From Elusimicrobiota bacterium (lineage in GTDB: Bacteria > Elusimicrobiota > Elusimicrobia > 2-02-FULL-39-32): a DNA stretch of 11,997 bases. Position numbers and translations under genes: made by a program. Under the pieces are notes generated by a model. It saw nothing but the letters and a program-made list of their open reading frames with translations, was not told the DNA's origin and ran no database searches. The stretch covers positions 2,049-14,045 of the forward strand of contig JAHFBY010000007.1 of NCBI GenBank assembly GCA_023249835.1. The letters run 5' to 3'. This document shows, piece after piece, positions 1 through 11,997 of this stretch (position 1 is its first letter; each line of letters opens with the position of its first letter).

Positions 1-186
1 GCCAATAAGAGGGGCGGTCGCTTCATTCCATTTTTGTGAAGGCTCTAAATTTATTAATGCGAGCAAGGCGTATCCAGCCGCATCGTTACGCTGCTTAGGC
101 AAAAAACCAAGGGCAGTCAGGATAAATATTGCATCTTTCAGTTTTTCTTTATGAAATGATTGGGATAAAATTCTCTTTTTCACCAT
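1..186 (-). CDS. BsuBI/PstI-type restriction endonuclease, N-terminal part (runs off window)
   Basis: This is the first 62 codons of a gene that continues past the left edge. The reading MVKKRILSQSFHKEK, then a helix ending FILTALGFLPKQRND, then AGYALLALINLEPSQKW and an ending PLIG, matches by memory the N-terminal helical domain of BsuBI/PstI endonucleases (pattern ALGLP.AQQNERSALTLLALL..). Those enzymes cut CTGCAG. The start is ATG at 186; AAGGA at 192-196 sits 5 nt upstream and supports it. The start overlaps the end of the methyltransferase gene by 38 bp in another frame, so the two are probably translated together, endonuclease after methyltransferase. That order lets protective methylation appear first. 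The catalytic C-terminal domain lies outside the window, so activity and exact specificity cannot be judged. Confidence 0.82.
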   Translation of the reverse strand, partial: MVKKRILSQSFHKEKLKDAIFILTALGFLPKQRNDAAGYALLALINLEPSQKWNEATAPLIG

Positions 187-1675
187 AAATTTCCTTTTCA
201 ACTACTCTATCCAACTCAAGTTGACCCATGCCTTCTGTCACTTTATATCCTAATATTTCTAAAGATTCTCTTGAAGGGTACCGTAAACGCCGCAGATCGG
301 TTGCGTTCACTTGGGTGTGCCCGCTAAACTGACGAAAATAATTATCAAGAACAGTTGAATTCAAAAAGGCCGCAAGCCCCTTTGCCAAAGATAAGGGCAT
401 CCCCTGACCATTAATATGCAAATAATTTAAGTGATTTTCAAAACCTACTTCATTTGCATGAATTTGATTTGAATCATAGATGCACGCAACGATGCGACGG
501 CGTTCCTCCTTAGAGGTAAATCTTTTAACCAGCACGTAAACACCTGCGGGGACAAATAAATTACGGGTTTTATCATTCTTTACTATGGCGTTAGCTTTAC
601 GCGAATTTTCCCTAGGCCAATGTATGAAACCTCCATTAAAATGGCAGGGATAAATTAATGGAACAGTGTTGCCGCCCGTTTGATCTCGAAGAAAAGATTT
701 CACGCGAAAATCTACGACGCGCCCAGTTGAAACGGTTACCCCTAAATCTTCAATTCTGCAAGCCAAACGATCCATTGCCACCTTAGTAGAGATGTTTTGG
801 CTGTCTAAAACCAAATGTATAAATTGGTCCAGATCATCCGGTGAAACCATATTGGTAAAGTCAATTTTATGTTTAATAATCGGATCCCCTATCTTTCCAA
901 CACTATTGGAAATAACTATCGTCTCAGATTGCTTATCGCTTTTTACGCCATGGATAATGATATTTTCCTGAAGCACTTTATCTTCGCAAAAAGCGGATGA
1001 GCGGGAATCAAAAACATGTAACCTTTCTAACGACATTGTGTTTAATAAATTTTGTCGAAATAATTTAAAGTATGGTCCATTACAAAAACTTCGCGGCGTA
1101 ATTGCAACCAGTTCTCCGCCCTTTTCTAAAAGTTTAATAATTAGAGCCAAAAATCCTGCATAAAGGTTTGGAACTTCAATATTAACAGATTGCAGCAGCG
1201 CTTGCGTCGCTGAGTTTGCACTAATCTTATGATAAGGTGGATTTACAATAGCTGCATTAAAAAAAGGTAACGAGGTGGCAAAAAAATCTCCTTTTATTAT
1301 TGGAACAACTGATGAAATAAAATCCTCATTCAATATTTTAAACTTAAATTCAATACCAGAACGCTCGCAAAGTCTTTCACATTCAAACAAAGCTGTTGCG
1401 AGATAGTCAAAAACATTTGAATCTAGCTCAAAAGCAGTAAGTGAAATGCTTTTAGGCTTACCCGTATTGGAGCAAACCCTTTTAATGAAGGCAGTTGAAA
1501 GCGCTCCCTGACCAGCGCCGGCATCTAGCAGTTCAATGTGTTGTGGGTGGCTTGCAAAGTGTGCCGCCATAAATTCAGCTATTGGTTTAGGCGTAAAGAA
1601 TTGACCCAGTTCGTGCTGGTGATCCTCTCTTGAAGCCAAAGGCAAGTAATTTATTTTATCTTTTAGTTTAAGCAT
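149..1675 (-). CDS. Type II N6-adenine DNA methyltransferase, PstI/PaeR7I-like (gamma class)
   Basis: 508 residues, a normal length for this family. It should transfer a methyl group from S-adenosylmethionine to an adenine in the recognition site and so protect the host from the partner endonuclease. Visible motifs in order: ELGQFFTP at 22-29, the entry motif of these enzymes; LLDAGAGQGALS at 49-60, motif I and AdoMet binding; AFELD at 81-85, the acidic residue that usually contacts AdoMet; NPPY at 145-148, the catalytic motif IV. Motif I before IV with a C-terminal recognition region (about 290-500) is the gamma arrangement. The site is most likely CTGCAG, judging from the endonuclease fragment that follows; this is inference. 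The start at 1675 has no clear Shine-Dalgarno sequence of its own. It lies 10 nt after a 35-codon leader ORF that has a perfect one, so translational coupling is likely. Confidence 0.93.
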   Translation of the reverse strand: MLKLKDKINYLPLASREDHQHELGQFFTPKPIAEFMAAHFASHPQHIELLDAGAGQGALSTAFIKRVCSNTGKPKSISLTAFELDSNVFDYLATALFECERLCERSGIEFKFKILNEDFISSVVPIIKGDFFATSLPFFNAAIVNPPYHKISANSATQALLQSVNIEVPNLYAGFLALIIKLLEKGGELVAITPRSFCNGPYFKLFRQNLLNTMSLERLHVFDSRSSAFCEDKVLQENIIIHGVKSDKQSETIVISNSVGKIGDPIIKHKIDFTNMVSPDDLDQFIHLVLDSQNISTKVAMDRLACRIEDLGVTVSTGRVVDFRVKSFLRDQTGGNTVPLIYPCHFNGGFIHWPRENSRKANAIVKNDKTRNLFVPAGVYVLVKRFTSKEERRRIVACIYDSNQIHANEVGFENHLNYLHINGQGMPLSLAKGLAAFLNSTVLDNYFRQFSGHTQVNATDLRRLRYPSRESLEILGYKVTEGMGQLELDRVVEKEIYGEKENFIPIIS

Positions 1676-2464: not shown

Positions 2465-4378
2465 TCAGTTTACTCTCTTGGTTTTACCCCCCCCCTCAAT
2501 AGATTTCTCAGTTTTATACTCACTAAAAACTAGTTTATTTTCAATTAATTGAATTTGAACAGGATCGCCCTTCTTCAATGTTCCATTGATAATATGATTG
2601 GCTAAGGGCTGGATCACTAAATTCTGAATTGCGCGACGCAGATGCCTTGCCCCGTATTGCGGTTCGTAACCTTCATGCGCCAAATACTCTAAAATTTCCG
2701 TATTGTAAAACAACTTTGCGGACTGTTGCTTTAACATAATATCAGCAATCCGAACAAGGTGCTGAATTTGCAGCGGTCTAAAAACAATGATCTCATCAAT
2801 CCGGTTAAGAAACTCAGGCCTGTACATCTTCTTAAGCTGAGCGCGAATTTGAAGAGATATTTTATCAAGCACATCTTCTTTTATGGATTCACCCTTTCTT
2901 AAAAAACCAATCTGGTCACTCTCATTAGACACATCAAACAGGTCTGATCCCACATTGGAAGTCATAATAATAACCATGTTGGAAAAGTCCACCACATTCC
3001 CTTTTCCATCTGTAAGTCGGCCTGCGTCAAATAATTGCAGAAAAACGTCCCAGCAGCCGGGATGGGCTTTCTCAAACTCATCCAATAAAATAATTGAAGA
3101 TGGATTTTTCTTAGCCCACTCGGTAAGCATTCCACCTTCATCGTAACCCACGTATCCCGGAGCTGCACCAATTAACCTTGTCACGTCCGATGGATGGACA
3201 AATTCTGACATATCAATGCGTATTAGTTTTGTGGAATCGTTAAAAAGCGTTTCGGCAATTGCCATCGCAAATTCCGTTTTTCCTACTCCGCTTGGGCCGA
3301 CAAAATAGAATACACCGTCCGGTCTTTTATTATCGCCGAACCCAGCTCTGATAGCGCGTATGGTATTTGCCACAGCTCGAATTGCATCTTCTTGTCCGAT
3401 AATTCTTGACCCCATATCCTGTTCCAAATTGCGGATTTTTTTGAGATCATCTTCAGATAGCTTTACTTCAGGGATGGCAGTTTTTTCAGAAACAATTGCC
3501 TCAATATGCGCTTCGGTTAAAACCAATTTATCTTTATCTTTTGCGCCGCTAAACAGTCCGCCTAAAATTCCATCCTCTTTCTGGAGTTTTGTTGCGGATT
3601 GATCCATCCGCAACTTTACAATCGCTTCGTCTAAAAGACTGATCGCTTTTACAGGGAATCGGCTATTCTTTAAAAATCGATTGGAAAGATACACGCAAGC
3701 ATTCAGAACTTTTGGATCAATAGTAATGTCGTACTGTTTTTCTCTTTGCTTTTTAACTGGCTCTAAAGCGCTTAAGCATTCTTCAGGAGTCATTTCAGGT
3801 ACATCTAGGAAAACTGAATATTCACCCCATTTAGTGGTTAAAAACCCTTCCTGCACTTTGAGTTCATTTGGATTGATTGTTCCAATAAATTGAATTTTCT
3901 TGTGCGTTACCAAGTTCCACAGAACATCGTTATAGAACTTGATACCATTAGGAAATTTATAAGAACCCCATAGAATTCCATGAATATTTTCAACAGCAAG
4001 TATAGTATTGCCCGATTCAGCTGCGCCTCGTAAAATTGAGTCCATCCGGTCCGCCGCCTGGTCCGGATTTTTAGAGAAAGCATCCGAAAGCGTTTCGCAA
4101 TCAAAAAAATAAATCCTCTTGTTTTTCAATTCAGGGATGTCCACACCCTTTGCAATAGCGTGAGCAACGCCATATATGATGGACTTTTTCCCAATTCCTT
4201 CCGGACCAGAAAGAACAATGTTGTTATGAGAAAACTTAACGAACGTTCGACAAATTCGTTCGATTAAAGAATCTCTCCCAAAAACAGGACTTAACTCTTC
4301 TTTTTTATAGCCTTGCGTTAAACTGATGACCCTCTCTGCGTTTAACTCTTCTTTTAATACTTCAATATCTGATAACAA
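2465..4378 (-). CDS. Clp/Hsp100-type double AAA+ ATPase (unfoldase), ClpA/ClpC-like without N- and M-domains
   Basis: 637 residues from a TTG start. The first AAA+ domain (about 25-275) has Walker A GPEGIGKK at 58-65, but its Walker B reads ILAVENIH (126-133) instead of the usual DE. The RRF arginine-finger region is KWGEYSVF, and no KYRG-type pore loop is seen, so it is probably not an active ATPase. The second domain is complete: GPSGVGKT 361-368, pore loop GYVG 408-411, Walker B LLDEFEKAH 431-439, sensor 1 TSN 473-475, arginine finger in EFLNRID near 526, sensor 2 GARHLRR 576-582. IGF at 490-492 lies where ClpA has IGL and ClpC VGF, the ClpP-docking loop. The Clp N-domain and the coiled-coil M-domain of ClpB/ClpC are absent. 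The frame is open upstream to 4498, but TTG at 4378 has AAGGAG 7 nt before it and avoids overlapping the giant frame. A run of nine G lies near the 3' end. Confidence 0.92.
   Translation of the reverse strand: MLSDIEVLKEELNAERVISLTQGYKKEELSPVFGRDSLIERICRTFVKFSHNNIVLSGPEGIGKKSIIYGVAHAIAKGVDIPELKNKRIYFFDCETLSDAFSKNPDQAADRMDSILRGAAESGNTILAVENIHGILWGSYKFPNGIKFYNDVLWNLVTHKKIQFIGTINPNELKVQEGFLTTKWGEYSVFLDVPEMTPEECLSALEPVKKQREKQYDITIDPKVLNACVYLSNRFLKNSRFPVKAISLLDEAIVKLRMDQSATKLQKEDGILGGLFSGAKDKDKLVLTEAHIEAIVSEKTAIPEVKLSEDDLKKIRNLEQDMGSRIIGQEDAIRAVANTIRAIRAGFGDNKRPDGVFYFVGPSGVGKTEFAMAIAETLFNDSTKLIRIDMSEFVHPSDVTRLIGAAPGYVGYDEGGMLTEWAKKNPSSIILLDEFEKAHPGCWDVFLQLFDAGRLTDGKGNVVDFSNMVIIMTSNVGSDLFDVSNESDQIGFLRKGESIKEDVLDKISLQIRAQLKKMYRPEFLNRIDEIIVFRPLQIQHLVRIADIMLKQQSAKLFYNTEILEYLAHEGYEPQYGARHLRRAIQNLVIQPLANHIINGTLKKGDPVQIQLIENKLVFSEYKTEKSIEGGGKTKRVN
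2487..2495 (-). repeat. Homopolymer tract of nine G near the 3' end of the ATPase gene
   Basis: Nine consecutive C on the plus strand, nine G on the coding strand, encoding the Gly-Gly-Gly about ten residues from the C-terminus. Gain of one G would put TAA directly after the glycines; loss of one would replace the KTKRVN tail by a different short tail. Tracts of this length are prone to slippage. Confidence 0.9.
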
Positions 4379-4385
4379 TTTAATA

Positions 4386-4391
4386 CTCCTT
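4386..4391 (-). promoter_or_regulatory. Ribosome binding site AAGGAG fixing the TTG start of the AAA+ ATPase
   Basis: AAGGAG 7 nt before TTG at 4378. It sits in the 64-bp gap after the giant frame and is the reason for choosing TTG over the ATG at 4498, whose extra 40 codons lack Clp-like sequence and overlap the upstream gene by 56 bp. Confidence 0.8.
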
Positions 4392-4442
4392 GGATTTTTA
4401 AATCTAACTTCAAACGAACTACAGAATGTCGGAAAAGTTATT

Positions 4443-7400
4443 TTACATCCCGCCTGACCACAGGAAATCCGCGGCCTTTTGTTTCGTGTAGCGGACAAAC
4501 CCTGCGCTCAAGCGGTCCGCCTTCATCTTGGTCTTGCTCCAGAACCGATCTACCGTACCGCTGTTTTCCGTTCCTGCTGTCCCCGACTTTTCTCTTTCCT
4601 CCATGTACCGGCTAAACTCATGGTCCGTCATTTGCTCATAAGACTTCTTCCCGGTTTCCCTGCTATGTCCATACTCCCTTTCACTTCCCGTTTCCGCATA
4701 AACCGGGCTCGCACCCAAACTGTTCGCCACTAGCGACACGATCACCGCTATGCTCTCCCCTGCTCCAGACAACGCCACCTCTCCCGCTTTCTCCAGCGAA
4801 TCAATCACGCTGCTTTCCGGCAGCACCCGGCTCGCAATCTCTTTAACGCTCTCTCCTATCCTGTGCGCCATGCTCCTAGTCACACTTAATGACTGGCCTT
4901 TCTGCGCTTGCTTTAACGCCCCCTCTAACTCTACCGCATCTACCCGCTCCTTATTCTGCGCCATTGCGTTTAATGACAATACCCTGTTCACTTGCAAAGC
5001 TCCGTTTAAACGCAGGGGACCACTTTGAACCCTCCCTGCCCCTGACTCCCCACTGTTCCCAGACTGCTCCGGCACCCTGGCAGCGAAGGACGCTCGTCCT
5101 TTAGGGCTGGTTTTTGATTCTGCGTCTTGAACCTTCAATGCCCCCGGCTTAACCGCATAAATTGTTACCGGCATATTTATTCCCGCAGGCTTCGACCCTT
5201 CCACCACCAACAACAAATCCGCTCCCTCCTCTTGCGCCGCCTTCAACGCCCATTTTTCTGACCCCGCATTTGTTTTTCCCGCCACCAAAACTCTTGTCTC
5301 CCCACTCTTCGACTCTAGTTTAACATACGGCCCCGCAGCAAAAATTTCCAGCTTTTCCCCCAGCTTTTCCCAAGTCCGTCCAAAACTATGCCCTTCATCC
5401 CCGGCTTCCAGTTTGTTATCCGCTTCCATTGTCCTGACCAATAATCCAGCCGACTCTACCCTTAACTCCGACGTTTCTTGCGGATACTCATTTATTCCCA
5501 GGCTCGCCACTTTCTCAGGCGACCCCCTCCTCCTACCTACAGAAGATACAGAGGGCTCGTTCTTTGCGCTTGCCTCAGCCGCCTCGGCCTTTTGACCCAG
5601 CTCAACTAACAATAACTTTAAATTTGATACTTCCACCTTTAACCTTTTGGCCTGGCCCAACCTGGCGCTGTCATGCTCTCGATTTGAGACTTGCTCAGTT
5701 GCGCTTATATTGCCTCCATTTACTGCCCCAACAGTTGGATCGCTATTTGCAAGCTTCGGCAATGCTGCCAAACGCTTTCCTTTCCTAAAGGACGAGACGT
5801 CGCGCCCCTCTGGGGCTCCCTTCGTCCCTGAGCTCCGCGAAGGGAGTGCTTCGCCTCCAGCGCTTTGCACATGCGCTGCTTCAAGCTCTGCTGGAGTCCC
5901 CTCAGATATACTCCGTGCAGCGGACTGCACTAAAGCGCGAGAGTGAGACTGCGTCTCCTCCTGGGACGCAGGGCGCTCATCCTTTAGGAAATGATTTAAA
6001 AACACTGGATTCCCCTTCGGGGAATGACGAATCGGAGTTTCGACACTCTCTCCTGCTGCTGCTTTGATCGTATCCATATTTCGGTTTTCCAACTCCGCGA
6101 TTAACGCTTCTTTATCTTGTATCCGCTCATCTACCTGATCCTTAAAACTCAACAACCTCTCTCCAACAGACTGCTGAACATTCCTGACCTGCTCTAAAAC
6201 CAAATCTGCTTTCTTTACTTCTACTTTTACCAGTGCGCCCGACTTCTGCTCACTCTCAATTCCTCGTTCTCCCGACCCTATCGTGATCGCGCTCTCTCTC
6301 CTCAAAATCGTTCTTTCATGCTTTTTATCCCTTTCCGCATCCTCCTCTCTCTCCATTGTCCCCAAACTGATCCCGGGCCATCCCGGTCCAAACAGTCTTT
6401 CCCCAACTCCCATTAACCCTTGCGCTTTTCCAACACCCCGTAACCCCATCACCGCTCCCGACATAAACAAACTAAATGACAACGGCTTTCCCAACCATTG
6501 CGCCACATGGCTCACGTCTAATATCACGTCGCTCGCTTTGATCCGCTTCATCTGACCAACCGAATGAATTACGTTATTTCCCCGCCCCTCGTTGCTCCAC
6601 TCCCAATTCTTAAACCCTTCTTTCTTCTTCCCCCTTCCTAACGTTACCACCAAATCCCCTTGCTTTCCTGCCGCATATTCCCCGCCTAAACTCCCTCCTC
6701 CGGCAACAACATCCTCAAACAATCTCCACCCTTCAATTCCTTTTCCCTCAGTAACCGCTTCCCACTTTATCCGTTCCGCTATCGGCGCTTCCCCTTTCTC
6801 ATACAGCTTTTCTTCACGCCAGTTTGAGTCCCGGAAACTTTTCCAGGAGTTCTCCTCGGCTAACTTTGTGCCAGATCGTGTCCGGTCCCCATCGGATTTC
6901 TTCGTCGTATGTCCACCAGTATTGCCCGCATACTCCGCATTGCCACGCTCCCCAGGTCTCTCGCTCTTTTGTCCAACTACATTCAAGCTCTTTGACTCGT
7001 TTCCGGAGTGCGTCTTCTGCATAGACATGTTCAATTGGTTTTGGTACGGAATCTCTCCCAAGTTCGATTGGGAGTTCTTCACAGCATTTTGCCATTTTGA
7101 TTCTCCTATTTCTTTGGGCTCAAAAATCCCAATAATTTCAATATTCTTATCCCCAGGTTTCAAACTATTAAGTTTTACTTCAAAGGCTCCATCCAGAGTT
7201 CGTCCGCCTTCTTTAAACCCTTCACCGCCTTTAAGGGCATTATTTAAACTCACTTTTTCTATATCTTTAATACGATAAAGAACGATTTTTTCTGCTCGTC
7301 TAGGTGTTAAAACAGTAACTTCTTTGCCATTTACAATTGCTTTTTCATACAACGCCAATCTCTCTGCAACTTCTTCGCCGGTCTTAAGGCCCGCCAGAGA

Positions 7401-10400
7401 TTCCGGCCTGGTAGACCACAGCCCGCTCTCTTTGCCAAGAGGCGTTTTACCTTTTAAGAAATTATTAACTCTATGTTCTTCCGCAGCGCTGACTAATATC
7501 CCGTCTTGCTGGAACCGTTTAAATAGCGCACCCGTATCGTCAACTTGGTGCAGCGCGCTTTTTTCTCCCGCCCACATCTCGCTTCCTTTCTTCTCATCTT
7601 CTATCCCAAATATGTTTTGGACTCTCTTAGAAATCCGCCTTAATCCATTCTTAAACGCCCTCTTCCCTAACGCCATGCTCCCTCTGCCGATCTCCCCGCT
7701 CAAAAATGTCAACTGGCTCTTAACCAAACTCTCAAACTTTCTCCCTATCACCTCCCGCCTCATTTCCTTTAGAACCTCTAAATTCACGATTAACTCATTG
7801 TTGCTTCCTTGCCCGGCGTGTCCTTCAATCAATAGCCGCGCTTCTGTAAGATCTTTGACCATCACTCCTTCGCCGTATTTCTCGCCTATGCCCAAATCTC
7901 TCAGGTTAAGTTTTAACTCTTTATTCGTTAAAACCAGTACGCTCTCTCCAGAGGCGGTGTGCTGTAAAACATAGTCTGCGTTGCTTTGCTTCCAGCTTCC
8001 AAGCTTGCCCCGCATATCCTCTCCCAATTGCCGCCCCACCAACTCGGACTCTACCACCAACCCGCTATCGCTAACCTTGCCTTTTACTATGCTTCCTCTC
8101 CCAAACAGGTTTAAAACCTTATCCACCAAATTACCCGTCTGCTCCTGCGCCCAACCTTTTATTCCGCTTAACTCTTTTATTTCTATTTCTATTTCTTTGC
8201 TCTTGTTTTCTATAAATGATTGTTTGTTTCCAATTCCTGCCAAATATCCATTTTTTCTCCCGTCAAGATAGAGCCCTCGTTGCTTAGCACGTCCGCTTCC
8301 TTCTTCAAGTTCAACCACTCTTCCTTGTACTTCGGATCGTTTTTGTTCGAGAATTGATGTCTCTTTTTCAAGTCTAAATATCTCTCTTCCATTAGCTTCA
8401 AATCTTTCAATTTCTGTTCGTCCTTTGCCAATTTCTGTTCGTCCTTTGCCAATTTCTGTTTCGCTTCCAACTCTCGCTCTTTGAAAAATACCTTGAGCTC
8501 CTTTAGGTCCTTTTCCTGATTCTCCAATCTCTGTTCCTGCTCCTTTAATGTTGTTTTCATGTCCGCTATCGTCGAGTCTGTGTGGGCTATCAATTCGTCC
8601 GTTTTTTGGAGTATTGTTTCCGTTTCCTTTAATGTTTCCATCTCTTGATCCGTTGATTTCTTTACTCTTTCCAACCAATCCTTCTTCGATTCTCCCGGCC
8701 GGGGACTGTCCATCCCCTCCGGCAGCTCCTCCTCGCTCAAATTTTGCCACCAACCCTTTAACCCATCCCACAAACCCATGATTCCCTCCTAGTTCCTTCT
8801 CCTGCTCTCTATTCCATTCCAACAACAACGGTTTATCTTGCTGCTTGCCCGCGATCCTGGCCATCATCTGTTTTTTCAATTCTACTTGCTCTGCTTTTAA
8901 TATTTCAACTTTTTGCTCGTTCGACGAAATTCTATCATCAAAGACCGGCAATGCTTTTCTAAAATTTGACGCCTTATTATCCATCTTCTGCGCATCGTCT
9001 TGCAAAAAATTAGACTCATCCTTAAGCGATTGCTCTTTATTAACTTCGTATCGTTTATCCCCTTTCGTTATTAAATTCTTAAGATCTCGACCTTCCCTCC
9101 TTTCAATTTTACTGTATACTTCAAATTCCGACTTTTCCCATGGCTGAACTTTGTACTTATCTACTCCTAAACTCACTTGGTCCGCTTTAGCTTTAAACAA
9201 CTCAAATCCTATCCCGCCTCTAAATACACGCGCATAACTTGCCAGCGTAGACATCCCTGCGGCAAGCTCCTCTATGTTCCCTTCGCTTAACGGACTGCCC
9301 AGCGCTGCGTTAAACTTTCTGTTTAAACTTGTAAATACTTCGGTGGACATCCATTTTGTAAGTCCCATCCCAACCAAATCTTCAACCACAGAGCCGAGTC
9401 CAAAGACTCCTATCGCAATTCGGTTGGACATCGTTACCTTTGCTTTGCTAAACACCCCTTCAAATAAGGCCTTCTCTATCTCTGGGTTACCCAGCATCCT
9501 CGCCGCAGCATATTTCTTGGCAAAGTATCCGCTCGCTCTAGGCACCGCGTTCAAGCTCGCTACCTCAAAGAGCGGCATCATCACTCCTCCTTCATACAAA
9601 CTCTCCTTCACCTCTTTAAAACTCATCATCCTCTGCTGCGTTATCGCTGTGCCCGCCGCGTTTAAACCAACCATCCCAACCCCGCACGCTCCCATCTTAA
9701 GCGCGGTTCCTCCTAATGATTTACCCGCCGCCTTCGCCCCTTCCCATAAAACTGACTTTTCTACGTTAGCCCAGACTGCGCTCCCAGCTAAATATCCTGC
9801 TCGCAGCGCCTGTCCTGTGCTCAAAATCATGCTCGCCATTAACATCAACGTCTCTTTGCCAAGCTCTTTGCGCACCCCCAGCGCTTCGCTCAAATCTTGC
9901 GCTACCGACGATTGGCTGTAGTCCCCGCGCACGAACCCGTCCCGAATTAAACCATTCACACTTTTGTCTATCGTTTTGTTGATTTCACTGCCGCCATTAA
10001 ACAAACTTGTGGCAAAGCGGCCCGTCAGGTTCAATATCTGATCCGACCCTTGCGCCTCCACTAGCCCGCTCAACATTCGCATCTTGGTGCCTTGCTCGGC
10101 CAGACCGTTTAATCCTGAGGTTAGTTTTCCTACCTGTTCACCGCTTAATGCGATATCCCCTTTTACATATGCGGTTAAACTTTCCAACTTGCCGTTATAA
10201 TCTTGCTGGAACCCCGCCATGCTTTTCAATCCCGCTTCCGACTGCCAACTCTTGCTCCCTGCTGATATGCGCAAACTGTACAAACTTTTACTTGCGTCCC
10301 CGTTCGCCAAGATCGCGTCTACTCCCAAAATCGCCGCTTCGCTTTGCGCTAACTGATAGGTTTCTTTGCCTTCCCTCTTCAGGCTCTTTATCCCCAACTC

Positions 10401-11666
10401 TGTTAATTTGATCGCTTTTTCCAGCTCATTTATCCGGAGCTCTAAACTCTCTATCCGCGCTTTGGCTTTCACTTCGGAACCTACCAGCTCTTTTACTAGA
10501 CCCAACGGATTTAACGTTTTTGTCGGCGCGCTTGCCAGCCATCCATCAGCGCTCAGCACACTCATCACCGCTTCCGACATCTCTTGGCCGGCGCCGGCAA
10601 CGTCCCCTTTTAATAAATTCCTCACAGCTTTTAACGCGCTGGGCCGCTCTTGCTCTCCCGGACCCTTTTCTCTCTTTATGTCCCATTCTAACTTCTCTAT
10701 TGCTCCGCTCAACTTCAGCACCATCTTGGCCTTTTCCGCGTTCGACTGATTCTCTTTACGCTCCTCCTGTAAAATCTCCCTATAGCCTCCCAGTTTCGTT
10801 ATCATCGCCGCTTTATTGGCTTGATAATAACTCTCGCCATTTCGCGCATACGCGGTGTCCACTTGCGCCCATTCCCCGCGCCGCATTAATGCGCTCACCT
10901 TTTCTAACCCTTGCTTTTTCTGCTCTAAGGCCCGCTCTTCCAGCTTGAACCCCTTGGTTAAATTCATTATCCCTTTTTGCCGTTCCTCGCTTCCTTCATT
11001 GTTCCATAGCTCCGTTTCCAGCTGTTCCCTCTTCGCCTTCGTCTCTGCCAGCGCCTGCGTGGTTTCTGCCAGGTTCAAACTCACCTTTTCCGCAAACTTC
11101 GCTCGGCTCACCCTCACCGCTTCCGCTCGAGCTACTCCCCTCTGCTCTAGCCGTTCTTCCATATTCACCACCGCCAAATACGCGCTCTTCCACGTCCTCC
11201 CCAACTCCGCGCAAAACGGCATTTCTTCGTGCGGCATTAATACTTCTAGGCTGGCACTTTCTCCTCCTAAAACTTTCGGTATCCGCTGATTAACTACCGC
11301 TTGCACATCTTTGACCGAAAGCTCTCTCATAACATGCTTTTTCTGTTCTGTCCCGCGAACAGGCTCTATCATAACCCTCTTACTAGTCTCGTCATTCCCA
11401 AACCCTGGATTCCCCTTCGGGGAATGACGAAGATCGATCGTTTCCGTTTCTATTTTGGTCTCTTTGGCTGCTTCTCTAGCGTTTGCTTTTCCCCTAAACA
11501 ATAACGCTACGCCCCCGCCTAGAATAAACGCTGTTCCGCTTCCGGGTAAAAACTTCAAATAATTGCCGATTATCCCGCTGCCTGACCCTGAATCATAAAC
11601 TGCCGCACCCTTGTCCTTTAGGATAGAAGCTAATCCAAGTTCTTCGCCCTCGCCGATCCCAATCAT
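4443..11666 (-). CDS. Giant open frame of 2407 codons; unknown multi-segment protein, possibly several genes fused in reading
   Basis: I recognise no family. By residue: 1-60 ends in a hydrophobic, Gly-rich stretch (33-58); 110-500 is charged, helical and coiled-coil-like; 600-770 has Gly/Ala-rich hydrophobic segments near 603-625, 644-673 and 750-768; 870-960 is again coiled coil. Residues 963-1153 overlap a gene in another frame and read as a Gly/Asn/Ser-rich linker. About 1376-1522 looks like a compact mixed domain; 1525-1618 is a second linker over a nested gene. Residues 1893-1962 are translated MITE, followed downstream by disordered sequence and a hydrophobic segment near 2305-2325 ending PVYAE. 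There is no N-terminal signal peptide. The start overlaps the upstream stop as TAATG and has no Shine-Dalgarno of its own, so coupling is expected. The open frame is certain; one 2407-residue product is not. The coding strand is purine-rich, which makes stops rare, so three genes joined by open overlaps is the main alternative. Confidence 0.6.
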   Translation of the reverse strand: MIGIGEGEELGLASILKDKGAAVYDSGSGSGIIGNYLKFLPGSGTAFILGGGVALLFRGKANAREAAKETKIETETIDLRHSPKGNPGFGNDETSKRVMIEPVRGTEQKKHVMRELSVKDVQAVVNQRIPKVLGGESASLEVLMPHEEMPFCAELGRTWKSAYLAVVNMEERLEQRGVARAEAVRVSRAKFAEKVSLNLAETTQALAETKAKREQLETELWNNEGSEERQKGIMNLTKGFKLEERALEQKKQGLEKVSALMRRGEWAQVDTAYARNGESYYQANKAAMITKLGGYREILQEERKENQSNAEKAKMVLKLSGAIEKLEWDIKREKGPGEQERPSALKAVRNLLKGDVAGAGQEMSEAVMSVLSADGWLASAPTKTLNPLGLVKELVGSEVKAKARIESLELRINELEKAIKLTELGIKSLKREGKETYQLAQSEAAILGVDAILANGDASKSLYSLRISAGSKSWQSEAGLKSMAGFQQDYNGKLESLTAYVKGDIALSGEQVGKLTSGLNGLAEQGTKMRMLSGLVEAQGSDQILNLTGRFATSLFNGGSEINKTIDKSVNGLIRDGFVRGDYSQSSVAQDLSEALGVRKELGKETLMLMASMILSTGQALRAGYLAGSAVWANVEKSVLWEGAKAAGKSLGGTALKMGACGVGMVGLNAAGTAITQQRMMSFKEVKESLYEGGVMMPLFEVASLNAVPRASGYFAKKYAAARMLGNPEIEKALFEGVFSKAKVTMSNRIAIGVFGLGSVVEDLVGMGLTKWMSTEVFTSLNRKFNAALGSPLSEGNIEELAAGMSTLASYARVFRGGIGFELFKAKADQVSLGVDKYKVQPWEKSEFEVYSKIERREGRDLKNLITKGDKRYEVNKEQSLKDESNFLQDDAQKMDNKASNFRKALPVFDDRISSNEQKVEILKAEQVELKKQMMARIAGKQQDKPLLLEWNREQEKELGGNHGFVGWVKGLVAKFERGGAAGGDGQSPAGRIEEGLVGKSKEINGSRDGNIKGNGNNTPKNGRIDSPHRLDDSGHENNIKGAGTEIGESGKGPKGAQGIFQRARVGSETEIGKGRTEIGKGRTEIERFEANGREIFRLEKETSILEQKRSEVQGRVVELEEGSGRAKQRGLYLDGRKNGYLAGIGNKQSFIENKSKEIEIEIKELSGIKGWAQEQTGNLVDKVLNLFGRGSIVKGKVSDSGLVVESELVGRQLGEDMRGKLGSWKQSNADYVLQHTASGESVLVLTNKELKLNLRDLGIGEKYGEGVMVKDLTEARLLIEGHAGQGSNNELIVNLEVLKEMRREVIGRKFESLVKSQLTFLSGEIGRGSMALGKRAFKNGLRRISKRVQNIFGIEDEKKGSEMWAGEKSALHQVDDTGALFKRFQQDGILVSAAEEHRVNNFLKGKTPLGKESGLWSTRPESLAGLKTGEEVAERLALYEKAIVNGKEVTVLTPRRAEKIVLYRIKDIEKVSLNNALKGGEGFKEGGRTLDGAFEVKLNSLKPGDKNIEIIGIFEPKEIGESKWQNAVKNSQSNLGEIPYQNQLNMSMQKTHSGNESKSLNVVGQKSERPGERGNAEYAGNTGGHTTKKSDGDRTRSGTKLAEENSWKSFRDSNWREEKLYEKGEAPIAERIKWEAVTEGKGIEGWRLFEDVVAGGGSLGGEYAAGKQGDLVVTLGRGKKKEGFKNWEWSNEGRGNNVIHSVGQMKRIKASDVILDVSHVAQWLGKPLSFSLFMSGAVMGLRGVGKAQGLMGVGERLFGPGWPGISLGTMEREEDAERDKKHERTILRRESAITIGSGERGIESEQKSGALVKVEVKKADLVLEQVRNVQQSVGERLLSFKDQVDERIQDKEALIAELENRNMDTIKAAAGESVETPIRHSPKGNPVFLNHFLKDERPASQEETQSHSRALVQSAARSISEGTPAELEAAHVQSAGGEALPSRSSGTKGAPEGRDVSSFRKGKRLAALPKLANSDPTVGAVNGGNISATEQVSNREHDSARLGQAKRLKVEVSNLKLLLVELGQKAEAAEASAKNEPSVSSVGRRRGSPEKVASLGINEYPQETSELRVESAGLLVRTMEADNKLEAGDEGHSFGRTWEKLGEKLEIFAAGPYVKLESKSGETRVLVAGKTNAGSEKWALKAAQEEGADLLLVVEGSKPAGINMPVTIYAVKPGALKVQDAESKTSPKGRASFAARVPEQSGNSGESGAGRVQSGPLRLNGALQVNRVLSLNAMAQNKERVDAVELEGALKQAQKGQSLSVTRSMAHRIGESVKEIASRVLPESSVIDSLEKAGEVALSGAGESIAVIVSLVANSLGASPVYAETGSEREYGHSRETGKKSYEQMTDHEFSRYMEEREKSGTAGTENSGTVDRFWSKTKMKADRLSAGFVRYTKQKAADFLWSGGM
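5086..5105. repeat. Solo end of the MITE-like element with a 7-bp hairpin
   Basis: CTCGTCCTTTAGG at 5093-5105 repeats the terminal sequence of the 5781-5991 element. AAGGACG (5086-5092) and CGTCCTT (5095-5101) form a perfect inverted repeat with a 2-nt spacer. It is read in frame by the giant ORF as SPKGRASF. Only one end is seen, so this may be a deletion relic of a second copy. Confidence 0.5.
5781..5991. mobile_element. MITE-like palindromic element with 16-bp terminal inverted repeats, inside the giant frame
   Basis: The ends are TTTCCTAAAGGACGAG (5781-5796) and, on the other strand from 5991-5976, TTTCCTAAAGGATGAG: 15 of 16 bases match. The interior is a chain of inverted repeats: 5804-5808/5812-5816 (5 bp), 5816-5824/5838-5846 (9 bp), 5855-5861/5890-5896 (7 bp), 5893-5897/5910-5914 (5 bp), 5915-5920/5925-5930 (6 bp, 4-nt loop) and 5949-5955/5965-5971 (7 bp). 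At 211 bp it encodes no transposase, so it would be non-autonomous. It is read through in frame by the giant ORF as residues 1893-1962, beginning FLKDERP and ending SSFRKGK. I see no clear target-site duplication. A folded structural element without mobility is the alternative. Confidence 0.65.
6005..6031. repeat. Short palindromic repeat, copy 2 (ATTCCCC-TTC-GGGGAAT)
   Basis: A 27-bp core identical to the copy at 11405-11431. It contains a perfect 7-bp stem (6009-6015/6019-6025) with a 3-nt loop, followed by GACGAA. The outer inverted arm of the other copy is missing. The giant frame reads it as RHSPKGNP. It lies 13 bp from the MITE-like element, so two repeat families meet here. Confidence 0.8.
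6814..7095 (-). CDS. Small Cys/Trp-rich protein (93 aa), nested out of frame in the giant ORF
   Basis: The composition is that of a real folded protein: seven Trp, and Cys at 4, 5, 39, 53 and 56, the last two as CGVC in WQCGVCGQYWW. One CxxC plus two nearby cysteines could bind a metal, but a full zinc ribbon is not visible. I recognise no family. AGGAGA at 7102-7107 lies 6 nt before the ATG, a strong ribosome site. Over the same bases the giant frame gives a Gly/Ser/Asn/Lys-rich linker (residues 1525-1618), which makes this frame the better candidate for coding here. It directly follows the compact segment at about 7540-7100 of the giant frame. A toxin domain followed by a small immunity protein has that layout, but no sequence match supports it. 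Confidence 0.6.
   Translation of the reverse strand: MAKCCEELPIELGRDSVPKPIEHVYAEDALRKRVKELECSWTKERETWGAWQCGVCGQYWWTYDEEIRWGPDTIWHKVSRGELLEKFPGLKLA
7102..7107 (-). promoter_or_regulatory. Ribosome binding site AGGAGA for the nested 93-aa gene
   Basis: AGGAGA 6 nt upstream of the ATG at 7095, inside the giant frame. A well-placed site in the interior of another coding frame argues that the nested start is used. Confidence 0.55.
8210..8779 (-). CDS. Coiled-coil protein (189 aa), nested out of frame in the giant ORF; homologue of the 11666-11986 gene
   Basis: A Trp-rich head (MGLWDGLKGWWQNL) and an acidic stretch are followed by a long heptad-type coiled coil at about 35-165 with exact repeats LAKDEQK LAKDEQK at 110-123, then a short tail. 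No family known to me. Residues 110-140 align without gaps to residues 34-64 of the small protein at 11666-11986: 13 of 31 identical, both containing a doubled heptad and then ERY/RRY.DLK.R. This homology, plus AGGAGG at 8785-8790 five nt before the ATG, shows that this frame is coding. A TAG at 8789-8791 closes the same frame just upstream, so it is not an extension of something longer. The giant frame stays open across all 570 bases but reads as a Gly/Asn/Lys-rich linker. A role as partner or chaperone of the large protein is inferred from the parallel position of its homologue. Confidence 0.78.
   Translation of the reverse strand: MGLWDGLKGWWQNLSEEELPEGMDSPRPGESKKDWLERVKKSTDQEMETLKETETILQKTDELIAHTDSTIADMKTTLKEQEQRLENQEKDLKELKVFFKERELEAKQKLAKDEQKLAKDEQKLKDLKLMEERYLDLKKRHQFSNKNDPKYKEEWLNLKKEADVLSNEGSILTGEKMDIWQELETNNHL
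8408..8461. repeat. 21-bp tandem repeat (about 2.5 copies) in the nested coiled-coil gene
   Basis: Units 8408-8428 and 8429-8449 are identical, followed by a partial third. In the nested frame each unit is one heptad, LAKDEQK. In the giant frame it gives the repeated GKGRTEI. Confidence 0.88.
8785..8790 (-). promoter_or_regulatory. Ribosome binding site AGGAGG for the nested 189-aa gene
   Basis: A perfect anti-16S match 5 nt before the ATG at 8779, with an in-frame TAG overlapping it at 8789-8791. It fixes the start of the nested gene. Confidence 0.65.
11389..11431. repeat. Short palindromic repeat, copy 1, with full outer inverted arms
   Basis: The outer arms TCGTCATTCCC (11389-11399) and GGGAATGACGA (11420-11430) are perfect 11-bp inverted repeats. 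Inside is the ATTCCCC/GGGGAAT hairpin shared with 6005-6031 (27-bp identical core, 11405-11431). The giant frame reads it as residues 80-93, RHSPKGNPGFGNDE. Palindromes of this GGATTCCC..GGGAATGACG type are scattered through many bacterial genomes, and in some lineages sit inside genes. Confidence 0.85.
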
Positions 11667-11986
11667 TATTGATCGGTCGATGAATTTGAATCCTTTTCCA
11701 ATTTTTCCAATTCGCTCACTATTTCTTGATATTCCTTCTCCTGCGACTTCCGAAGCTCGTTGTAATTGGGCAAGTCCGGCGTTATTTGCGACATTCTCTG
11801 CTTTAAGTCCTGATACCGTCTCTCTATATCTTTGCTCTGCGTTAATTCTTGCTGTTCTCGCGTTAATTCTTGCTGTTCTCGCGTTAATTGTTGCTTGCAG
11901 TCGTCTTCCAATTTCGTCAGTCTCCGGTATTGATCCTGGTTTTCCGCTATTGTTTGGCCTATTGCTTTTAATTGATCGTCCGACAT
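11666..11986 (-). CDS. Small coiled-coil protein (106 aa visible), translationally coupled to the giant frame
   Basis: Mostly Gln/Glu/Lys/Arg-rich heptads at about 20-65 with a doubled unit LTREQQE LTREQQE (34-47), then RRYQDLKQR, a short Pro/Asn turn (66-75) and a second helix (77-98). There is no signal peptide or membrane segment, and no family I know. It resembles the nested 189-aa protein at 8210-8779 (see there). Its TAA shares one base with the ATG of the giant frame (TAATG), the usual sign of coupled translation and often of partner proteins. The frame has no stop between the ATG at 11986 and the right edge, and no good ribosome site precedes that ATG. The true start may therefore lie outside the window, and the protein may have a longer N-terminus like its homologue. 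Confidence 0.78.
   Translation of the reverse strand: MSDDQLKAIGQTIAENQDQYRRLTKLEDDCKQQLTREQQELTREQQELTQSKDIERRYQDLKQRMSQITPDLPNYNELRKSQEKEYQEIVSELEKLEKDSNSSTDQ
11840..11894. repeat. 21-bp tandem repeat (about 2.5 copies) in the small coiled-coil gene
   Basis: Units 11840-11860 and 11861-11881 are identical, followed by a partial third. Each encodes one heptad, LTREQQE in frame. The DNA differs from the 21-bp repeat at 8408-8461 although the protein position corresponds. Confidence 0.88.
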
Positions 11987-11997
11987 CTTCTTTATCC

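Follow-up and report, generated by a model that had tools for sequence, protein, structure and literature searches.

Whether a small gene lying out of frame, on the same strand, wholly inside a giant open reading frame (ORF) is translated in addition to that frame, or whether one of the two is an artefact, is the question raised by a coiled-coil gene of 189 codons in an Elusimicrobiota bacterium. The window, that is, the whole stretch of 11,997 nucleotides analyzed here, covers positions 2049-14045 of a 14,045-base contig, its right edge (window position 11997) being the contig end; the source genome is a fragmented 2.37-Mb assembly of 475 contigs, 73% complete. The giant frame (4443..11996, minus strand; at least 2517 codons) is stop-free up to the contig edge and lacks its 5' part there; its first ATG lies at 11666, and the 2407-codon version initiated at that ATG thus falls short of the open frame, which extends further upstream to the edge. 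Inside it lie three small ORFs of 106, 189 and 93 residues, all on the same strand, the first two displaced downstream of the giant frame by one base and the third by two. Since the giant frame holds no stop, a ribosome entering upstream must read through. On the sequence evidence assembled below, we consider it very probable that this is a very long, multi-domain, polymorphic-toxin-like gene with small same-strand, out-of-frame genes inside it, both frames being translated, and dual coding of nested and giant frames is in itself well supported. The original prediction had left translation of both frames and an artefactual giant frame side by side; it is the former that gains support, from statistical evidence belonging to each frame separately and from recurrence of the arrangement in other genomes.

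Two open frames over the same bases

The 189-residue gene (8210..8779 including its stop TAG, minus strand, offset one nucleotide from the giant frame) is a complete ORF with both a start signal and a stop. As first described, an AGGAGG Shine-Dalgarno (SD) sequence (8785..8790, minus strand) stands 5 nucleotides before its ATG, with an in-frame TAG (8789-8791) just upstream; a six-nucleotide SD core (AGGAGG, GGAGGT or AAGGAG) precedes 6 of the 200 ATGs on this strand of the window. Its 106-residue coiled-coil paralogue (11666..11986, minus strand) has the same offset, may be cut at its 5' end by the contig edge, and lies upstream of the giant's first ATG, which its stop overlaps (TAATG). The ungapped identity of 13 in 31 residues claimed for the two proteins, a count by eye, is as stated; BLASTP aligns them with 18 of 49 identities (E 0.001 if a database of 1e6 residues is assumed), and as a query against the window's own genome the 106-residue protein retrieves the 189-residue ORF at E 4.1e-4. 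The paralogue had also been presented as an independent homologue outside the giant frame, which is true of the ATG-initiated version only: it is itself nested, because the same giant frame runs without a stop across it to the contig edge. Both genes carry 21-nucleotide tandem repeats, exact in the longer one (8408..8460, minus strand; read as LAKDEQK and TEIGKGR in the two frames) and with 97% matches in the shorter (11839..11895, minus strand; repeat search), and these give a seven-residue period in every frame, so that both readings can be coiled-coil-like.

Protein searches, which the original prediction had proposed for both translations, returned nothing at E<=1e-3 for the 189-residue protein in a word-based search of 5.8 billion predicted proteins (196 candidates scored) and nothing at that threshold for the giant among the 7997 candidates sharing most words; it was a profile of the coil family that found three further nested loci, described below. 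None of the nested proteins tested has a Pfam or NCBIfam match above the curated cut-off, and the best Pfam candidates, Exonuclease VII large subunit for the 189-residue protein (13.4 bits against a gathering cut-off of 35.9) and OmpH for the 106-residue protein (14.3 against 32.4), were rejected.

In keeping with the original prediction, no stop interrupts the giant frame anywhere along the 192 codons, counted from stop to stop, of the 189-residue ORF. When the giant's codons are resampled by genome usage, an open run of at least 192 codons arises in that shadow frame in 0.75% of 2000 trials, and when its own codons are permuted, in 0 of 2000. Taken the other way, with the nested protein fixed and its codons drawn by genome usage, 12.2 giant-frame stops are expected over the 189-residue gene and 7.1 over the 106-residue gene; none is seen in either, and the giant frame is open in 0 of 10,000 draws for each (in a separate run of 20,000 draws, 0 and 1, respectively). 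Permutation of the genes' own codons leaves the giant frame open with P 0.0003 over the longer gene and 0.017 over the shorter, and among equally long stretches taken from ordinary ORFs of this genome, 0 of 316 at the longer length and 1 of 725 at the shorter are free of stops in that shadow frame. Because openness thus exceeds chance in both directions, by resampling, by permutation and by the ordinary-ORF control, both frames appear to be constrained. Further, a frame model, for which 89 ORFs from other contigs were the training set and in which bases are counted about three times so that only the sign and order of its scores are meaningful, favors the nested frame inside the 189-residue ORF (four of four scoring windows) and the 106-residue ORF (two of two), and the giant frame in all remaining scoring windows, including those over the 93-residue ORF. 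GC content by codon position was rejected as sole proof, 7047-7406 looking alike without a nested frame of at least 40 codons at the same offset, and stop-codon reassignment was rejected in view of normal stop numbers in the other shadow frame.

Three families of nested genes

The nested proteins of the window have relatives in related genomes, which are designated here by genome (G) and contig (C) labels. Scanning of other giant frames yielded a 165-residue nested coil in G180 C320 that has the motif Y.D.K.R…P.Y.E in common with the window's coils and a BLASTP match from the 106-residue ORF (E 0.007), with none from the 189-residue ORF. A profile built from the C-terminal parts of these three seeds and run on 235 genomes of the class gave six loci at E<=1e-3, namely the seeds themselves and G180 C104, G013 C17 and G179 C386. 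All six, three of which built the profile, are nested at the same offset, in host frames of 715 to at least 2771 codons. Relatives that keep the giant frame alone, a possibility raised in the original prediction, are absent from this set, both frames being open at all six loci. At the three non-seed loci 8.3, 10.9 and 9.6 host stops are expected, the codon usage of G180 standing in for G013 and G179, and none is observed (permutation P 0.0014, 0.017 and 0.0054). The ATG in G180 C104 is preceded by AAAGGAGG, the G179 member has a GTG start with a weak SD, and the G013 ORF is cut close to the contig edge; by eye, the members from G180 and G179 show tandem repeats akin to those of the window. One host, with a signal-peptide-like start (locus L131:492-2636, minus strand), has only 715 codons, and the nesting arrangement is therefore not limited to giant genes. 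Nine weaker matches (E 0.001-0.01) were rejected as relatives, being ordinary coils in their own frame, and a coil of G020 C17 was rejected as a sure homologue.

A family of lipoproteins occurs both nested and free. The 160-residue lipoprotein gene is nested twice in G020 C17, each copy after a hydrolase-like domain and with the giant frame continuing; 12.2 and 12.4 host stops are expected over the two copies and 0 observed (permutation P 0.0004 each). At six of the eight other loci the matched stretch begins 2-38 nucleotides after the end of a long frame (736-2080 codons), and the lipoprotein is a separate gene there (G178 C143, C247 and C249, G011, G028 and G020 C10). The order of a GxSxG hydrolase-like domain (motif by eye) and then the lipoprotein gene was seen at the three G178 loci, those of the six that were inspected for the motif. 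Stops at the host offset of the nested copies number 0 and 0 in those copies and 2, 0, 5, 9, 11, 11, 14 and 5 in the eight others, where the zero is a second, 127-codon copy in GC-rich G178; at the other offset the same eight have 4, 8, 4, 8, 10, 7, 6 and 2. The separate loci are a natural control for nesting, in what would be the usual toxin-then-immunity order. Between the two G020 lipoprotein units, differences fall on position 3 of the giant frame outside the overlap (149 of 281) and on position 3 of the nested frame inside it (79 of 155; chi-square p 9e-12), from which it is evident that amino-acid selection passes from one frame to the other at the edge of the duplicated nested gene. Purifying selection in the nested frame, on which the original prediction had staked the 189-residue gene, is measurable in this pair, from the codon positions of its differences; the 189-residue gene itself has no close relative.

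The third nested gene of the window (6814..7095, minus strand, at the other offset of two bases) encodes 93 residues of a small cysteine family, CC…CxxCGQ, hereafter CCGQ. It starts at the last codons of a giant-frame segment (7092..7526, minus strand) ending ..NIEIIGIFEPKEIGESKW; in G020, too, a nested CCGQ gene comes after a tail of this kind. A CCGQ profile run on 340 genomes of the phylum gave 12 domain matches in 10 ORFs at E<=1e-4 (G020, G178 and G180), and of the 11 CCGQ ORFs that result when the window's is included, 10 are nested at one common offset in long frames of up to 9977 codons; genome codon usage predicts 19.3 host stops over these ten, and 0 are observed. The remaining ORF, a double-domain one outside the G020 giant (L052:1480-2010, minus strand), has a shadow frame that is open after one stop and enters a membrane-protein-like ORF. 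A giant-frame domain designated domain A (…IYSVDENGVKxxW) has seven copies in the 235 class genomes, and at the last codons of all seven a nested CCGQ gene starts, its SD sitting within codons of the conserved tail. A different tail, …NIE(I/V)(I/L)G(I/T)F(E/S)P(K/S)EIG..KW, stands before the CCGQ gene of the window and before that of one G020 locus. Over the first ~14 CCGQ codons after the domain-A tail, each frame has 4 invariant positions out of 14 in 7 of 10 rows (without the divergent G178 C143 and the two rows that have the other tail), and it is only there that host-frame amino-acid selection over the overlaps is clear.

The word-based search of predicted proteins gave two relatives of the CCGQ family; a viral-contig scan with the profile gave none, nor did a genome-contig scan with the 93-residue protein as query. 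Weak matches comprise four at E 0.002-0.01, each with internal stops, and six at E 0.0025-0.009. Against PDB sequence profiles the family has weak matches, mostly to zinc fingers (best E 0.013), and domain A two chance-level matches only (E 0.46 and 0.86). A recurring motif, NSPT.NSIDTA, lies on the flanks of a nested CCGQ gene in G020; it is comparable to HSPKGNP/SPKGR-type motifs that recur in the window's giant frame at about 11440-11395, 6040-5995 and 5120-5070 (minus strand) and resemble translated short repeats.

Over all 19 nested ORFs, codon usage predicts 116.7 host-frame stops and 0 are observed, related loci being counted separately; the alignments used in this analysis are shallow. 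Twelve of the 19 (44.9 expected stops) are recoverable by protein or profile search, although two of these (G020 n1 and G180 n1) first came to light in a frame listing for such a locus, and the first match to the G020 C6 locus was obtained with the giant as query; the other seven, three in the window and four from scanning giants, were noticed through lying in open host frames. SD-like start signals precede about 14 of the 19 (by eye). In comparisons between loci, shuffle Z ranks the similarity of the nested proteins above that of the host readings for 42 of 43 pairs; identity, with the frames aligned separately, does so for 36 of 43, with one tie. At the level of sequence it is shown that, for the coil and lipoprotein genes, chance falls far short of explaining the openness of both frames, and that the nested proteins represent families recurring as nested genes in other genomes.

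A proposed arrangement and its rivals

We propose that ribosomes starting upstream read the giant frame straight through into one long chain of folded domains, in which the portion over the small genes would spell a hydrophilic linker, and that ribosomes starting at the internal AGGAGG and ATG would make the small proteins. Both products would thus derive from a single long message, the small proteins by internal initiation. The CCGQ and lipoprotein genes may confer immunity to the giant-frame domain whose end coincides with their start, as suggested by their position, by the presence of tandem duplicates and, in the lipoprotein's case, by a lipobox-like start; both sit where an immunity gene would, directly behind a giant-frame domain (domain A for CCGQ, in seven of seven). 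The 189- and 106-residue coiled coils may be accessory or immunity proteins of the same system, which is the weakest step in the proposal. Somewhat tentatively, we lean towards the further view that multi-warhead toxins are made here as single giant polypeptides, the immunity or accessory gene of each warhead being carried out of frame inside the inter-warhead linker. Immunity genes that double as linker DNA would make toxin and immunity inseparable, and would allow cassettes to be inserted mid-gene and not only at the 3' end.

Several observations weigh against this proposal. For every nested CCGQ ORF the own-codon permutation is non-significant (P 0.15 to 1), and ordinary G178 stretches of CCGQ length are open in 15-17%. 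The length of the window's 93-residue ORF is unremarkable as a shadow of this giant (P 0.16-0.21), and the codon score over it prefers the giant frame. The coil genes do not lie directly after a toxin domain, as immunity genes would; the recognizable toxin-like domain lies downstream of the coil, which is what makes the coils' role the weakest step. Placed as they are between giant domains and upstream of the toxin-like one, an accessory role is as plausible for them as immunity.

Of the competing explanations, the one that survives best, improbable as we hold it to be, is that only the nested genes are real, the giant frame being open over them by chance or base composition and its flanks being separate genes in the same frame. 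The preference of codon statistics for the nested frame inside the 189- and 106-residue ORFs would fit this, as would the lower conservation of host-frame than of nested amino acids in the overlaps and the finding that CCGQ openness is not rare given the genes' own codon choice. However, chance would have to account for the absence of about 117 expected stops over the 19 ORFs, and seven of the eight non-nested lipoprotein homologues do have stops at that offset. Giant-frame starts with a strong SD near the nested stop are also few among the 16 nested ORFs checked, an exception being the TAATG restart behind the 106-residue ORF.

The converse, that the giant frame alone is real and that repetitive, purine-rich coding keeps its shadow frames long enough to look like nested ORFs, is very unlikely. 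It draws on the length and codon score of the 93-residue ORF given above; it is opposed by the greater cross-genome likeness of the nested proteins than of the giant readings, by the SD, ATG and stop present in many nested ORFs, and by the occurrence of the lipoprotein elsewhere as a separate gene. Less credible still is programmed frameshifting, in which the ribosome would leave the giant frame, read the nested domain and shift back to give one fused protein. An offset fixed for each family would suit such a mechanism, but every nested frame terminates at a stop of its own. In most of them, too, the start codon is accompanied by an SD, and the nearest in-frame stop upstream is 0-14 codons away (49 in G180 C320; the 106-residue and G013 ORFs reach contig edges); moreover, a fused product would not need the giant frame open in between. 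Assembly or sequencing indels, despite the fragmentation and incompleteness of the window's genome, can be set aside as scarcely conceivable, for the same arrangement is found in six genomes, two of them from different isolates, and indels would not remove stops.

Relation to known systems and the surroundings of the locus

The preferred reading, of small genes translated out of frame within a toxin-like giant, invites comparison with polymorphic toxin systems, in which the immunity gene directly follows the toxin. Such systems (Rhs/YD, contact-dependent inhibition, CDI, and related ones) comprise long multidomain secreted proteins with exchangeable terminal toxin domains, polyimmunity loci and tandem paralogous immunity genes (Zhang et al. 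2012, PMC3482391). The likeness lies in long multidomain giants, small immunity-like genes behind domains, and tandem copies; the difference is that the Elusimicrobiota frame runs past the toxin-like domain, through the immunity-like genes and on to further domains. The passages of PMC3482391 on overlapping, embedded or tandem genes describe no such out-of-frame nesting. As to domains, no known one was found in the window's own giant with Pfam or NCBIfam. YD-like repeats are seen by eye in the G020, G179 and G180 giants, and no RHS match to Pfam or NCBIfam was found in the giant stretches tested. Directly after the nested coil of G013 the giant frame enters a RES domain (PF08808) above the Pfam cut-off (E 3e-10; L132:484-1203, plus strand), and in G179 a RES match after the coil falls below it. 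After the nested CCGQ gene in G020 C17 and the three G178 loci, the giant frame picks up again with a hydrophobic segment and, as judged by eye, a hydrolase-like domain of GxSxG type; G013 also has a GxSxG-type motif near its C terminus. Matches of some of these hydrolase-like domains to the Pfam families Tle3, VirJ and cutinase are weak and below cut-off. In Tle/Tli-type pairs a lipase effector is accompanied by a lipoprotein immunity protein, and the hydrolase-like GxSxG domain (by eye) followed by a lipoprotein gene resembles that order, whereas the Pfam Tle3 match reaches 16.9-17.1 bits against a cut-off of 27.

Few long genes that overlap on the same strand are known from cells, and such cases are often contested because evolutionary support is lacking. 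Same-strand overlapping or nested bacterial genes are treated in PMC8665328; the likeness is a complete out-of-frame ORF within another coding sequence, and the differences are three unrelated small-protein families repeatedly nested in long toxin-like frames, an offset that is fixed for each family, and a control in the form of one family's separate copies. Judged by title and start of abstract, no paper among the literature matches listed describes immunity genes that sit out of frame inside toxin genes. Gene overlap and polymorphic toxins are each familiar; what the literature searched did not yield is the repeated occurrence of out-of-frame, immunity-like genes within a toxin-like frame that runs on past them. 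The significance of the arrangement resides in its recurrence across six genomes and three unrelated families, in a quantitative absence of stops, and in the control built in by the separate homologues. Dual coding can be cheap where one frame need only be open as a hydrophilic linker, and the arrangement suggests a route by which polymorphic toxins might carry several warheads in one chain. It also suggests that annotation that forbids overlaps may miss such small genes, the word-based search of predicted proteins having given no relative of the 189-residue protein at E<=1e-3 and two of CCGQ.

Other features surround the giant gene. A Clp-type AAA+ ATPase (2465-4498, minus strand) matches Pfam AAA_2 above cut-off and the NCBIfam ClpB/ClpA models below theirs, and the frame that encodes it overlaps the giant one at the latter's 3' end. 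At the opposite end of the window's contig, a YD-like protein (by eye; L003:2-1141, minus strand), cut by the contig edge, has no match in Pfam or NCBIfam. An Eco57I-like adenine methylase gene (149-1675, minus strand) is followed by a 341-residue ORF (L003:1224-2249, minus strand) containing a short run of N.
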